From assembly GCA_007280905.1 (NCBI GenBank), contig QYQM01000155.1:1-38449 (forward strand): 38,449 bases of DNA. Reading direction: 5' to 3'. This document shows positions 3,896 through 10,525 of the stretch, one piece after another. This stretch comes from Porphyromonadaceae bacterium (GTDB lineage Bacteria > Bacteroidota > Bacteroidia > Bacteroidales > UBA12481). The notes under the pieces were generated by a model. The model was not told where the DNA came from and did no database searches. It worked only from the letters and a program-made list of their open reading frames with translations. Made by a program: the position numbers and the translations under genes. Position 1 is the stretch's first letter. Each line of letters opens with the position of its first letter.

Positions 3896-6800
3896 ATGAA
3901 AAAGATAAAATTCCATTGTGTTTTCCTTTTACTGCTTATTTGGTTCTGCGGTACTTTGGAAACCACTGCGCAAAATTATCTACCTCCCAATGGCGGAGGT
4001 TTCCCTGATCCTCAATTGAGCCAGAAAGATAATGATTACCTGAACCGGCAGGCAAAGGTATTTCTGGATACAGTACAGTCAATCCTTTCAGATTATCCGC
4101 CGATATTACCCGAGGGCAGAGAAAGAGGATTTGCCAAATTACTCATAGATGCTGTTTTTCACGAGCGTTATGCAGCTTTTAGAAAGCCTGCTCAGGCATT
4201 CTTTCATGCACAGACCAATCAACTGATTAAAGAGTTGGAAGAGATTAAGGTAGAGAATGGAGCAAAGATTTGGAAGGTATACAACATGGGATTTATTGTA
4301 CGTACAAAATCAGTCACACTTGCTTTTGATATTGTCAGGGGCGCAACTTCCGGATCAGCTGACTTTACATTATCAACCGACGAAATGGATCGTATTGTCA
4401 AACAATGTGATGTCTTGTTTATTAGTCATAAACATGCGGATCATGCAGACAAAGAGGTTGCCGAAGATTTTATCAGGCTGGGCCGACCGGTTGTGGCTCC
4501 TGAACAGGTTTGGAAAGATGATCCTGTCTTTTCACTGATCACCCATCTGGATCGGACCCCGGAGAAAGTTCAAAAACTCAAACTATCTGACAATTTCGTT
4601 CTGGATGTTATCATTTATCCCGGTCATCAATTGCGTTCAGCAGATAATAATGTTGCGTTGGTTAATACTCCGGAAGGAATAACAGTTGCCCATTTGGGCG
4701 ATCAGATTAATGAAGGTGATTTCATGATCGACTATGACTGGATCGATAAAATTGCTCAAAATCATCATGTTGATATTTTAATGCCTAATGCCTGGACGAT
4801 GGATATTTCCAGGATTGTCAGAGGTTTTAATCCGGAATTGGTAGTGCCGGGACATGAACTGGAACTGGGTCATACGGTTTGGGACAGACTGCCCTATTGG
4901 GGCGATGATGAATATCTGGAACTTAATTATTCAGAATTAAAAGCCTCCGGATATCCCGTTCTTGTGATGGTTTGGGGAGAATCGTATCAATATGATCCAA
5001 AACCTATTTATCTTGATTATAATCAATCCTTTAAAGTGCGTGTAGATGATTTGCTTTCCAGAATGACTCTGCAAGAGAAATTATCCCAGATGATGACCCG
5101 TACCCCAACTGAGCTAATGCGCTTCGGAATCCCCGGATATCAATGGGGCGGCGAGGCAGGCCATTGTGTCATTGCCCGTTCAGGTGATGTGGCCACCATA
5201 TTTCCCCAGGCCATTGCTCAAGCTGCCACATGGAATAAAAGGACCGTTTACGAAGTCGCTAATGCAATGTCAGATGAATCGAGGGCAAGGGTTCATGCGG
5301 GAATACCGAAAACCGGCCTTACTTTCTGGGCTCCCGTAGTGGAAATGGCCCGCGATCCGCGATGGGGAAGGACGGAGGAATGTTATGGGGAAGACCCGTA
5401 TTTAACGTCTCAGTTGAGTCTTGCTTTTGTAAAGGGCCTTCAGGGAGATCATCCCAAATATTTGAAAACCATAGCAGCACCAAAGCATTTTGCAGCGAAT
5501 AATGAGGAGTGGTGCCGCCATAACGGTTCTTCCGAAATTGATGAACAGCTATTGCACGAGTATTACCTTCGTCCTTATCAGGTCCTTGTTGAAGAGGGAA
5601 AAGTGGAGCAGATAATGGCTGCTTATAACAGGCTGAATGGCGTTCCTTGTGCTGGTAATAAACTTCTCTTGACTGATATTCTGCGTAATGATTGGGGCTT
5701 CGACGGAACTGTTGTTTCCGATTGCAATGGAATTAAAGATTTATATGAAGGACACAAATATGTCGCCAATGTTGAGGAAGCGATTGCGCTGGCATTAAAC
5801 TCAGGGCTTGATCTGGAGTGCGGTGATTGTTTTAAAGCATCTCTGGCCGAGGCTGTTAAAAAAGGTCTGGTTTCTGCAGCTACGATTGATACAGCCGTAC
5901 ACCGGATTCTTCTCTCCCGTTTTCGTTTAGGATTATACGATCCGCCTGAAATGGTGCCATACACAAAGATTCCTCATACCGTTGTAGATGGCCCTGAAAA
6001 TCGTGCCCTTGCCAGGAAAGCCGCCCGTGAGGCTATCGTGTTGTTAAAAAATGAGAACCATCTTTTGCCATTAAATATAAAGGAGGTCAAATCAGTTGCT
6101 GTTATTGGCCCCAATGCAGCTGTTTGCCAAATGGGCGGATACACAGGAGCGTATTCCAAAGCAGTTTCGCCCATTGAAGGAATTATAAACAGGCTCGACA
6201 ACGCTAAAGTCCATTACGTTAAAGGCACAGATATAAAAATTTCACTACCGGTTATACCAAACGAGTACCTGGTTCCGCCCGATGCCAAACCGGGAGAACA
6301 CGGTTTGCGGGGAGAATATTTCAACAATACGGATTGTTCAGGTGATCCTGTTTTGGTACGAATTGATCCGGTAATTGATTTTAATTTTGGCAGAGGTGCT
6401 CCTGATCCTGCAATCCCGATTGATTACTATTCTGTGAGGTGGACAGGCCGGTTTATTGCTCCGGCTTCAGGCACCTATTTTATTGGAGGTGATTTTGACG
6501 ATGCTATTCGCCTTTATCTTGATGGCAAAAAGATTATTGACAAAACAAACAACAGAAACCGGTCATCTGATGCAGTGAAAATTGAATTGGAGGCTGGAAA
6601 ACAGTATGACTTGAGAATTGAATATACCGAACAATGGTATAATGCCGCAGTCAAACTTTGGGGTGCACCTCAGAATCCTGATAAATTCAAAGAGGCAGTG
6701 GATGCTGCCCGAAATGCTGAGGTGGCAATTGTGGTTTTAGGTACAGATGAAAGCGTGGAAAAAGAAGGTGTTGACCGTTCAGACCTGGATTTGCCCGGTG

Positions 6801-7525
6801 ACCAGGAAGAATTGGTTAAGGCGGTGTACCAGGCCAATCCAAAAACCATTGTGGTATTGCAGAATGGAAGTGCCTTGTCCATTAACTGGCTGAAGGAGAA
6901 TGTTCCCGCGATTCTTGAAACCTGGTACAACGGTGAAGAAGCAGGAAATGCACTTGCCGACGTAATTTTCGGAGATTATAATCCCGGCGGAAGGTTGCCC
7001 TTGACGTTTTATAAATCGGCAGAACAATTTCCTTCGATCAGCGATTATGATATCAGGAAGGGACGGACTTACCTGTACCCAAATAACGGAAATGATAAAT
7101 CATCAATTAGTGAACCATTATATTCTTTCGGTTATGGGCTGAGCTACACTCAATTTAACTATGGACCCTTGCAGGTCATATCCAAAAAGATTGATGCGGC
7201 AGGAAGTGTAATAGTGAAAATTTCGATGAAAAATATTGGTGACCGCTTTGGAGACGAAGTGGTACAACTTTATGCAAGAGATGAAAAATCAAGTGTTCGC
7301 CGGCCTGATAAACAACTGGTTGGCTTTGAAAGGATTTCGCTTCAACCCAATGAGATTAAAACGGTTGAGTTTGTTTTTCCTGCAAAAGATTTGGCTTATT
7401 GGGATGTAAACAAAAAATCTTTTATCGTCGAACCGGGAGTATTTACGATTATGGCCGGTAGCTCCTCTGCAGATATAAGATCAACCGGGAAGTTTAGAAT
7501 TAAGACTATCAGCATGTTACCATAA
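3896..7525 (+). CDS. Metallo-beta-lactamase-fold / GH3 / PA14 fusion protein
   Basis: This is a 1209-residue protein with an N-terminal Sec signal ending near T-T-A-Q (about residue 26), so it is exported. Residues about 85-350 form a metallo-beta-lactamase-fold hydrolase: the H-K-H-A-D-H motif supplies His178, His180, Asp182 and His183, followed by A-H-L-G-D and V-P-G-H-E metal-ligand motifs. From about residue 380 a complete GH3 begins (D-D-L-L-S-R-M-T-L-Q-E-K), with nucleophile V-V-S-D at Asp609. A PA14 domain is inserted at about 800-925. The acid/base loop E-K-E-G-V-D-R (Glu957) follows, and an Fn3-like domain closes the protein. All catalytic residues of both enzymes appear intact. The MBL partner resembles UlaG-type lactonases in motif style, but its substrate is unknown. 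The fused architecture is unusual to me. Confidence 0.9.
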   Translation: MKKIKFHCVFLLLLIWFCGTLETTAQNYLPPNGGGFPDPQLSQKDNDYLNRQAKVFLDTVQSILSDYPPILPEGRERGFAKLLIDAVFHERYAAFRKPAQAFFHAQTNQLIKELEEIKVENGAKIWKVYNMGFIVRTKSVTLAFDIVRGATSGSADFTLSTDEMDRIVKQCDVLFISHKHADHADKEVAEDFIRLGRPVVAPEQVWKDDPVFSLITHLDRTPEKVQKLKLSDNFVLDVIIYPGHQLRSADNNVALVNTPEGITVAHLGDQINEGDFMIDYDWIDKIAQNHHVDILMPNAWTMDISRIVRGFNPELVVPGHELELGHTVWDRLPYWGDDEYLELNYSELKASGYPVLVMVWGESYQYDPKPIYLDYNQSFKVRVDDLLSRMTLQEKLSQMMTRTPTELMRFGIPGYQWGGEAGHCVIARSGDVATIFPQAIAQAATWNKRTVYEVANAMSDESRARVHAGIPKTGLTFWAPVVEMARDPRWGRTEECYGEDPYLTSQLSLAFVKGLQGDHPKYLKTIAAPKHFAANNEEWCRHNGSSEIDEQLLHEYYLRPYQVLVEEGKVEQIMAAYNRLNGVPCAGNKLLLTDILRNDWGFDGTVVSDCNGIKDLYEGHKYVANVEEAIALALNSGLDLECGDCFKASLAEAVKKGLVSAATIDTAVHRILLSRFRLGLYDPPEMVPYTKIPHTVVDGPENRALARKAAREAIVLLKNENHLLPLNIKEVKSVAVIGPNAAVCQMGGYTGAYSKAVSPIEGIINRLDNAKVHYVKGTDIKISLPVIPNEYLVPPDAKPGEHGLRGEYFNNTDCSGDPVLVRIDPVIDFNFGRGAPDPAIPIDYYSVRWTGRFIAPASGTYFIGGDFDDAIRLYLDGKKIIDKTNNRNRSSDAVKIELEAGKQYDLRIEYTEQWYNAAVKLWGAPQNPDKFKEAVDAARNAEVAIVVLGTDESVEKEGVDRSDLDLPGDQEELVKAVYQANPKTIVVLQNGSALSINWLKENVPAILETWYNGEEAGNALADVIFGDYNPGGRLPLTFYKSAEQFPSISDYDIRKGRTYLYPNNGNDKSSISEPLYSFGYGLSYTQFNYGPLQVISKKIDAAGSVIVKISMKNIGDRFGDEVVQLYARDEKSSVRRPDKQLVGFERISLQPNEIKTVEFVFPAKDLAYWDVNKKSFIVEPGVFTIMAGSSSADIRSTGKFRIKTISMLP

Positions 7526-7558
7526 AACCTCAACCATAATAATCTGGTAAACAAATAG

Positions 7559-10525
7559 ATGAGAGTAAGAAAATTTTCATCCTTCTTTTTTCTCTGTGGT
7601 TCTCTGTGGTCCTCCTTGGTCCTCTGTGTAATTTATTCACTTACACAGAGTTGCACAGAGGACCACAGAGAGCCACAGAGAAAGATTGATTACACCCACC
7701 TCGTTGATCCTTTCATCGGTACAGCCGGCGAGGGCAATACCTGGCCCGGTGCTTCGGTGCCTTTTGGTGCAGTCCAGCTGAGTCCGGATACCAACCTGGA
7801 AGGACATGCTATATACGGTGGGTATTATTATCCCGATTCCACTATTATCGGGTTTTCTCATACCCATTTAAGCGGTGTAGGTGAACCCGAATACCGCGAC
7901 CTGCTGTTTATGCCAACAACAGGCAAAGTCAAACTTAACCCAGGCATTGCAGAAGCCAAAGGTTCTGGCTTTCGATCCGCTTTCGATCATTCAGATGAAG
8001 CCGTATCTCCCGGTTATTACAGGGTTTTGCTGCGCGATTACGATGTGACCGCAGAATTGACTGCAACGCTAAGATGTGGCTTTCATAAATATACATTTCC
8101 AAAAACTGACAGTGCGCATATTGTAATTGATTTGGCTCATCCGGGAGGGGCCGAGGACCTTTATATCAAGAGGATCAGCGATTCTGAAATTGAAGGATTA
8201 CGCCGCTCTCACGGGTGGGCATGGGATCAATATGTTTATTTTGTTGCCAAATTTTCAAAACCATTTTCATCAATAGATATTGCGGTTAATGATTTAACAT
8301 TGGCAGGTTCATCCGAGGCCCGGGGTAAAAATGTTAAAGCCGTCATCAATTTTCAAACTAAAAAAGGAGAAGCCGTTCTGGTGAAAGTGGGAACATCGGC
8401 AGTGAGTGTTGATGGAGCCAGAAAAAACCTCGCTGAAGAAATCCAGGACTGGAATTTTAACCAGGTGGTAAGTGATGCCAAAAATTCCTGGAACAAGGAA
8501 TTGGCTAAAATTGAAGTTGAAGGAGGTACGCCGGAACAACAGAAAGTTTTTTACACCTCAATGTACCATGCGCTTTTAAGTCCGAATGTTTTTATGGACG
8601 TCGACGGCAAGTACCGTGGTGTGGATCATAAGGTACATGAGGGAAAGGACTTTACAAACTATACTGTATTTTCACTATGGGATACCTTCCGCGCGTTGCA
8701 CCCGATTTTCACTATTATCAACCAAAACAGAACCAACGATTTTATCAAATCCCTGCTCCGGATGTATGACGATGGCGGACGTCTCCCCATGTGGCCTCTT
8801 GCCGGAAATTATACCGACGATATGCTTGGATATCATGCCGTTCCGGTAATTGTTGATGCCTATATGAAAGGGATCAGGGATTATGACGTTCAAAAAGCTT
8901 TTAAAGCCGTGCGCCATAGTGCGGAACTTGATAAGCTGGGATTAAAATACTATAAAAAACTCGGGTACCTCCCTTTTGACCGACAGGGGGAGTCGGTTTC
9001 CAAAACCCTTGAGTATTGCTACGACGACTGGTGCATATCGCAGGTGGCCAAAGAAATGGGTTCAAAAGATGATTATTTGTACTATCATCTGCGGGCACAC
9101 TTTTATGAAAATGTAATTGACACTTCCACCGGATTCATGCGTGGACGCGCATTCGACAGAAGCTGGTTAGAGCCCTTTGATCCCATGATCAATTCAGCCT
9201 ACTCCGAGGGTAATGCGTGGCAATATATGTTTGTACCGCATGATGTAAATGGGTTGATCACGAAAATGGGTGGTGACCAGAAGTTTTCGCAATGGCTGGA
9301 TACCCTTTTCTCAATGAAATCCAAAGAAAAAGGGATGATCGGGCAATATGCTCATGGCAATGAACCGAGCCACCATCTGGCTTACCTCTATAATTATAGC
9401 GGACAAGCCTGGAAAACACAATACCTTGTTCATAAAATTTTGACTCAACTATATTCCGCAACTCCGGACGGACTTGCCGGCAATGAAGATTGCGGACAAA
9501 TGTCGGCCTGGTACATACTTAGCGCCATGGGTTTTTATTCAGTGACTCCCGGACAGAATATATATATTATCGGAAGTCCGCTTTTTGAAAGAGCCACAAT
9601 CAACCTTGAAAATGGCAAGACGTTCGTCATTCGCGCAAATAATATTTCTGATCAGAATATTTATATCCAATCATCCAAACTCAATGGACTCCCCTATACA
9701 AAATCATATATCAGCCATGATGATATTATGAATGGCAGAGAGCTGGTTCTCGAAATGGGGCCAAATCCAAGTAAGGCGTGGGGAACGGAGAAAAATGACC
9801 GGCCGTTTTCAGAGAATGGCACTGAGGTGGTTCAACCTCCCTTTATCAAATCGGGAGATTTACTATTCATTAATTCCTCTGTGGTCACTTTGGGATGCGA
9901 CACTGAGAATTCCATAATCCGGTATACTCTTGACGGATCGGAACCGAGTGAACAATCCGTTACTTATACCAAACCATTTGAACTTAAGGAATCTACCGTT
10001 CTGAAAATGCAATCATACCACAAAGAAATGAATCCCGGGATGGCGGTTACTTATGAATTTGAAAAAGCTGAGCTAAAGGAACCTGCATCGATTACTGAAA
10101 TTATGCCGGGATTGCATTATGATTATTATGAGCGGTTTTTTGTTTCGGCTGAAGACCTCGACCTGGTTGATCCGGTTTCTTCAGGCACTATAACTGATTT
10201 CAATATCAGTGAGTTGAAAAGAGAGAACTATTTTGGATTCAGGTATGCTGGATACATAAGGGTTTCCACGGATGGAATATATACCTTTTTCCTGAAATCG
10301 AATGACGGTAGCAGGTTATATCTTGATGGTGAGGAACTTATTGAAAACGATGGCAACCATGGAGCTATCGAGGAACCAGGCAGTATCGGGTTAAAAAAAG
10401 GCCTGCACAAAATAGAAGTTAAATATTTTCAATGTGGAGGCGGAAAAACATTAAAAGTGTGTTGGGCGGGACCCGGATTTGAAAGGCATGAAGTTCGGGC
10501 ACAAGAGCTGTTTATTGATAACTGA
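7559..10525 (+). CDS. GH92 family alpha-mannosidase with CHB_HEX_C and PA14 domains
   Basis: This is an exported, calcium-dependent exo-alpha-mannosidase of family GH92, the type used on yeast mannan or N-glycans. The 988-residue protein opens with a hydrophobic leader and a possible lipobox L-T-Q-S-C. Mature GH92 sequence then starts at D-P-F-I-G-T-A-G-E-G-N-T-W-P-G-A. The F-S-L-W-D-T-F-R motif and the G-N-E-D-C-G-Q-M-S-A-W-Y motif (Glu643, Asp644) are family hallmarks. After about residue 740 come a chitobiase/hexosaminidase C-terminal-like domain and a terminal PA14 module, both probably carbohydrate-binding. The leader codons lie inside a 43-base-arm inverted repeat, so the export signal may have been created or replaced by that repeat. 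Linkage specificity is not readable. Confidence 0.93.
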   Translation: MRVRKFSSFFFLCGSLWSSLVLCVIYSLTQSCTEDHREPQRKIDYTHLVDPFIGTAGEGNTWPGASVPFGAVQLSPDTNLEGHAIYGGYYYPDSTIIGFSHTHLSGVGEPEYRDLLFMPTTGKVKLNPGIAEAKGSGFRSAFDHSDEAVSPGYYRVLLRDYDVTAELTATLRCGFHKYTFPKTDSAHIVIDLAHPGGAEDLYIKRISDSEIEGLRRSHGWAWDQYVYFVAKFSKPFSSIDIAVNDLTLAGSSEARGKNVKAVINFQTKKGEAVLVKVGTSAVSVDGARKNLAEEIQDWNFNQVVSDAKNSWNKELAKIEVEGGTPEQQKVFYTSMYHALLSPNVFMDVDGKYRGVDHKVHEGKDFTNYTVFSLWDTFRALHPIFTIINQNRTNDFIKSLLRMYDDGGRLPMWPLAGNYTDDMLGYHAVPVIVDAYMKGIRDYDVQKAFKAVRHSAELDKLGLKYYKKLGYLPFDRQGESVSKTLEYCYDDWCISQVAKEMGSKDDYLYYHLRAHFYENVIDTSTGFMRGRAFDRSWLEPFDPMINSAYSEGNAWQYMFVPHDVNGLITKMGGDQKFSQWLDTLFSMKSKEKGMIGQYAHGNEPSHHLAYLYNYSGQAWKTQYLVHKILTQLYSATPDGLAGNEDCGQMSAWYILSAMGFYSVTPGQNIYIIGSPLFERATINLENGKTFVIRANNISDQNIYIQSSKLNGLPYTKSYISHDDIMNGRELVLEMGPNPSKAWGTEKNDRPFSENGTEVVQPPFIKSGDLLFINSSVVTLGCDTENSIIRYTLDGSEPSEQSVTYTKPFELKESTVLKMQSYHKEMNPGMAVTYEFEKAELKEPASITEIMPGLHYDYYERFFVSAEDLDLVDPVSSGTITDFNISELKRENYFGFRYAGYIRVSTDGIYTFFLKSNDGSRLYLDGEELIENDGNHGAIEEPGSIGLKKGLHKIEVKYFQCGGGKTLKVCWAGPGFERHEVRAQELFIDN
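7589..7683. repeat. Long imperfect palindrome inside the GH92 start region
   Basis: Arms 7589-7631 and 7641-7683 are reverse complements at 37 of 43 positions, around a 9-base loop. Each arm is built from short CTCTGTGG/CTCTGTGT-like units, so the element resembles a dispersed REP-like repeat. It is translated in the GH92 gene and encodes most of the signal peptide and the lipobox cysteine. Confidence 0.85.

Follow-up and report, generated by a model that had tools for sequence, protein, structure and literature searches.

A GH92 alpha-mannosidase-family gene on contig QYQM01000155.1 of a Porphyromonadaceae bacterium (assembly GCA_007280905.1) passes in frame, close to its start, through a dispersed palindromic repeat that encodes the leader of the protein. 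The analysis covered positions 1 to 38,449 of the contig, a stretch referred to here as the window. In the explanation that we favor, to which a probability of roughly 0.6 may be given on sequence evidence, the repeat-derived 5' end gives the enzyme its Sec/lipoprotein leader. A small, non-autonomous palindrome of 10-bp CTCTGTGG units, resembling a miniature inverted-repeat transposable element (MITE), sits at the boundary between a GH3 gene and the GH92 gene and would have become the 5' coding end of the latter. The left arm contributes the hydrophobic core and the right arm the lipobox cysteine and a charged linker, with an ATG and the residues MRVRKFSSFF from outside the repeat acting as the n-region. 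Most likely, this leader directs the protein into the Sec pathway and to lipidation at Cys32, presumably with cleavage by signal peptidase II, whereas the nearest relative would export its GH92 domain as the rear part of a single GH3-GH92 protein. That the leader derives from the repeat is well supported. As an export signal it is plausible, not strong, and it probably functions as one.

The GH92 open reading frame encodes 988 amino acids and reads through the palindrome without a stop. As the original prediction had claimed, its ATG at 7559 lies 30 bases upstream of the repeat; an in-frame TAG immediately precedes this codon. The predicted identity of the protein is borne out by Pfam matches to PF17678 (GH92N, 268 bits) and PF07971 (GH92, 617 bits), by a match of 630 bits to the solved GH92 enzyme 6f91, and by intact GH92 motifs when aligned to solved enzymes. 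The N-terminus consists of MRVRKFSSFF, the repeat-encoded FLCGSLWSSLVLCVIYSLTQSCTEDHREPQRK and then IDYTHLVDPFIGTAG, with L-T-Q-S-C32 encoded by 7640-7654, such that the translation contains both the hydrophobic leader and the L-T-Q-S-C motif that the palindrome had been proposed to encode. The GH92N match starts at residue 48 and the alignments of most solved GH92 chains start at residue 41-46; the end of the repeat thus coincides with the beginning of the enzyme. No in-frame start lies between the element and the catalytic domain, and a search for a downstream start with its own signal peptide found none. The repeat-derived leader is therefore the only candidate export signal of the GH92 protein.

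The element itself is an inverted repeat of 95 bp, with 43-nt arms that are 86% complementary and separated by a 9-nt spacer. The arms are found exactly where they had been placed beforehand, and the CTCTGTGG-like units proposed as their building blocks can be seen in the sequence. The RNA fold of the element has a free energy of -65 kcal/mol (z = -12.5), and the inverted-repeat fold is far beyond chance since none of 200 shuffles was equally stable. The predicted hairpin has a stem of 25 bp plus 10 bp.

The original prediction had also called for a comparison of orthologue N-termini, which revealed unrelated leaders or none, and no orthologue was found that has the same leader without the palindrome. 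The nearest orthologue, in the same genus (G005:C610), shares 77% amino acid identity and aligns from residue 44, directly past the element. In G005 the GH3 and GH92 domains belong to one open reading frame of 1807 amino acids, and the junction, which reads KFIVQAKAVPPNDYTRLVDPF, contains no palindrome, stop, start codon or signal peptide; the G005 linker includes KAVPPNDYTRLVDPF. In the window, the junction consists of KFRIKTISMLP-stop, a spacer, the ATG, the repeat leader and then DYTHLVDPF. As GH3 and GH92 form a single open reading frame in G005, the element stands at a gene boundary that is absent from that genome, and the free-standing GH92 described here differs in this respect from its nearest relative. 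Most of the other GH92 homologues stand alone and have unrelated leaders, and GH3 homologues of about 880 amino acids are likewise found as separate proteins. The GH92 lipoproteins of related genomes have their domain content and a lipoprotein-type leader in common with the protein in the window, but the leader here comes from a repeat. The GH3 tail and the linker in G005 end at the same point, which weakly favors an ancestral fusion that was later split. The unrepeated n-region MRVRKFSSFF, for which a search elsewhere in the genome returned only chance matches, could be a remnant of an ordinary older signal peptide, which would favor separate ancestral genes. More GH3-GH92 pairs were sought in the order and class and GH3 C-termini were compared, and either the fused or the separate state may be ancestral.

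The coding properties of the repeat follow from its unit length. As ten is a multiple of three plus one, each frame cycles through one word (S-L-W-F-S-V-V-L-C-G), while the complement reads H-R-E-P-Q-R-T-T-E-S. The element is palindromic, so the hydrophobic half comes first and the charged half second in either orientation; over palindromic copies, read in both orientations and all frames, the first half has a mean hydropathy of +1.16 and the second half -1.81. Seven other copies were placed behind the n-region of the window in all orientations and phases, giving 42 placements. The frame was open in 21 of these, and 11 gave an open hydrophobic leader, compared with 45 of 3000 dinucleotide shuffles (1.5%) and 86 of 3000 random chunks of the window (2.9%). 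No placement passed the lipobox rule (0/42). The LTQSC word does appear when the copies on C39 and C32 are read, and HREPQR likewise recurs in translations of other copies. On this logic, a palindromic repeat with a 10-bp unit would be expected to produce hydrophobic leaders roughly ten times as often as random DNA does. It is a tentative, and on balance doubtful, extension of these results that the CTCTGTGG palindrome acts as a frame- and orientation-tolerant signal-peptide cassette, whose dispersal can provide a domain with an export signal in a single step and which here made a separate lipoprotein out of one half of a secreted GH3-GH92 fusion.

As a signal for signal peptidase II, the leader has an n-region with Lys/Arg, an uncharged h-region and a lipobox cysteine within positions 15-35. 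It passes a PROSITE-style lipoprotein rule at Cys32, as do no more than 7 of the 391 stretches with an ATG start in the window. Its best 12-residue Kyte-Doolittle mean is 1.92, near that of Escherichia coli MalE (1.99; PhoA has 2.24). The residues after Cys32 read C-T-E-D-H, with a polar +2, acidic residues at +3/+4 and no K or Q-A. In Bacteroidetes, the lipoprotein export signal (LES) after the cysteine is K-(D/E)2 or Q-A-(D/E)2, or a polar residue plus an acidic run (PMC5080379), which the GH92 leader loosely resembles, although it lacks the K. The comparison with G005 indicates purifying constraint on GH92 (nonsynonymous and synonymous divergence, dN 0.15 and dS 1.64, by NG86).

Several observations weigh against a functional leader. 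The PROSITE-style lipoprotein rule was applied with a script of our own. The hydrophobicity of the leader is below that of all 11 sibling GH92 leaders (2.4-3.7), its h-region is long, at about 22 residues, and the lipobox T-Q-S-C departs from the canonical [LVI][ASTVI][GAS]C, being atypical at -3 and -2. A hairpin of this stability in the 5' coding region could also hamper translation. The purifying constraint on GH92 is no proof that the present gene functions, as the estimate averages over time before the element arrived. Finally, among 87 distinct elements from many genomes, with recognition by eye, the element in the window is the only one that forms the sole leader of a recognized protein.

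An accidental overlap, in which insertion of the element at the 5' end ruined proper export, leaving a frame that is open by chance and a GH92 protein that is poorly exported or decaying, would account for the weak hydrophobicity relative to sibling leaders and is helped by the finding that half of the placements are open anyway. It also fits the distribution of the 87 elements, which elsewhere are almost all intergenic. Other genes starting in a copy of the repeat, which the original prediction had suggested looking for, were searched for and none was found with the element as sole leader: a leader-peptide search of 393 genomes of the order recovered no other long gene that starts in such an element, and the other N-terminal overlaps among the 87 elements either had a better downstream start with its own leader (e.g., L171 and L193) or looked spurious. 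The repeat as a recurrent donor of leaders was thus rejected, with no second case in either set. However, an accident of this kind sits poorly with a full-length reading frame without stops, with intact GH92 motifs, and with a lipobox that is present here and in none of the placements of other copies. We regard it as rather unlikely.

It is less probable still that the hairpin acts chiefly at the RNA level in a GH3-GH92 transcript, as an RNase III site or a brake on elongation or translation, with leader coding being secondary. The very stable stem between two co-directional genes speaks for such a role, yet the hairpin lies within the open reading frame, beginning at +31 of GH92, rather than ahead of the start; the start codon falls outside it, within a weak A+U-rich stem. 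The element has no match in Rfam, and relatives give no sign that the site is conserved. A scan for consensus promoters and terminators around the element returned nothing above chance. Control of GH92 translation by the hairpin, as had been proposed, is no more than conceivable. An assembly artefact, with two contigs wrongly joined through repeated sequence in this 185-contig draft genome, is highly improbable, as the copies are at most 88% alike, making the element unique at read scale, and GH3 and GH92 are also neighbors, in fact fused, in G005.

A search of the 4.39-Mb draft genome for further copies, as the original prediction had advised, found about ten loci (C40, C60, C39, C43, C166, two in C32, C50, C139 and C23). 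These have a common architecture, in which several CTCTGTGG-type units are followed by a short loop and then by the complement of the units. Among 60 relatives, five genomes, this one included, have matches to the element at E <= 1e-6; G005 carries a single copy, and the sets in G017 and G021 are more distant. With its 95 bp, inside the range of about 70-200 bp for such repeats, a palindromic structure, dispersal and no coding gene of its own, the element has MITE-like characteristics. Element-free sites are found in relatives, at the G005 junction and, in G004 and G006, at the C50 site, but these do not represent clean insertions, since the flanking sequence differs too. No target-site duplication was obvious by eye in the copies compared, and no partner transposase was identified.

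The element had been called REP-like, after the repetitive extragenic palindromes. Its dispersal is supported, and membership of REP in the strict sense is not. REP/REPIN sequences and their Y1 transposases, the RAYTs (PMC3733652, PMC2817692), are likewise associated with dispersed, mostly extragenic palindromes; the element here is longer, decamer-built and low in copy number, with no Y1 link found. The genome has three Y1_Tnp loci, none with such a palindrome in its 1.5-kb flanks, and for this reason the element is not filed under REP/RAYT. The unit differs too, as a 95-nt decamer palindrome in about ten copies contrasts with units of 20-40 nt that are GTAG/CGTC-tagged and usually of high copy number. 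A literature search with the DNA words of the repeat found no description of it, which is no proof that none exists.

Two copies in the same genome form the other end of genes. On C50 (L015, around 1465-1548), the element has taken the place of the final codons of the preceding gene and also holds its stop, giving the tail SYLRGPL, where the same gene in G004 and G006 has the ordinary C-termini SEKLKIPI and SEKLEIPI. On C23 (L017, around 1513-1596), the C-terminus of a flavoprotein-like gene product, NHTENHRDTTESHRE, comes from a copy that is read with its charged arm ahead of the other; alignments of relatives end at residue 508 of 517 or earlier, and their tails differ. Repeats can form real gene ends, which is a caution for annotators.

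That a mobile palindrome can donate a signal peptide is already known from the RU-2 (YPAL) repeat of Yersinia, which is found in YPO1552, a gene whose counterparts in other genera begin with unrelated signal sequences (Delihas 2007, PMC2759123; reviewed in PMC2229807). The two cases are alike in a mobile palindrome supplying the signal peptide and in homologues with unrelated leaders. They differ in that the repeats are unrelated and that YPO1552 is a putative exported protein of 144 amino acids, not a large enzyme; here the lipobox is also supplied, the hydrophobic word occurs in all frames, and the relative is a GH3-GH92 fusion. The Rickettsia palindromic elements (RPE; Ogata et al. 2000), of about 100-150 bp, lie in frame inside conserved protein genes and, as far as the review describes them (PMC2229807), are tolerated inserts within proteins, unlike the N-terminal leader described here. 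New here are the family of the element, the provision of a lipobox, a coding logic that tolerates any frame and either orientation, and the connection with a fused GH3-GH92 gene in the nearest relative. Cases in which a gene can be seen acquiring a signal peptide are rare; in this one the source of the leader can be identified and the arrangement in the nearest relative is different.

Table 1. Features of the GH3-GH92 locus, in window coordinates
Feature	Position	Strand	Remarks
Upstream gene	3896..7525	+	MBL-like (metallo-beta-lactamase-like) domain + GH3 + PA14 + Fn3-like; G005 relative fused to GH92
Stretch without counterpart in the G005 fused gene	7523..7687	+	165 nt: GH3 stop, spacer, ATG and palindrome; from alignment
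GH92 alpha-mannosidase-family gene, putative lipoprotein	7559..10525	+	GH92N + GH92 + CHB_HEX_C_1 + PA14
Start codon and positively charged n-region MRVRKFSSFF	7559..7588	+	Outside the repeat
Palindromic CTCTGTGG-decamer repeat element	7589..7683	+	In frame as GH92 residues 11-42; from repeat search, genome copies and fold
Left arm	7589..7631	+	Codes for hydrophobic core FLCGSLWSSLVLCVI
In-frame TTG inside the element	7616..7618	+	Only alternative start before the catalytic domain; leader would be without n-region
Right arm	7641..7683	+	Codes for LTQSC (Cys codon TGC, 7652-7654) and hydrophilic linker TEDHREPQR

The N-terminal metallo-beta-lactamase-like domain of the upstream GH3 protein (window 3896-5000; a weak Pfam match) is not found in the G005 fusion protein; the domains of this locus have thus been rearranged more than once. 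Elsewhere, a GH92 homologue (L020, G018:C28) carries about 300 N-terminal residues of another domain ahead of GH92, and a paralogue in the same genome as the window (L070, G000:C14) has two GH92 domains in one frame of 2004 amino acids. Decamer arrays related to the repeat are also present in Bacteroidetes, Beggiatoa-like bacteria, planctomycetes and other groups. Exact CTCTGTGG arrays (L131-L210) abound in Candidatus Parabeggiatoa genomes and are spread over several phyla, with one archaeal record.
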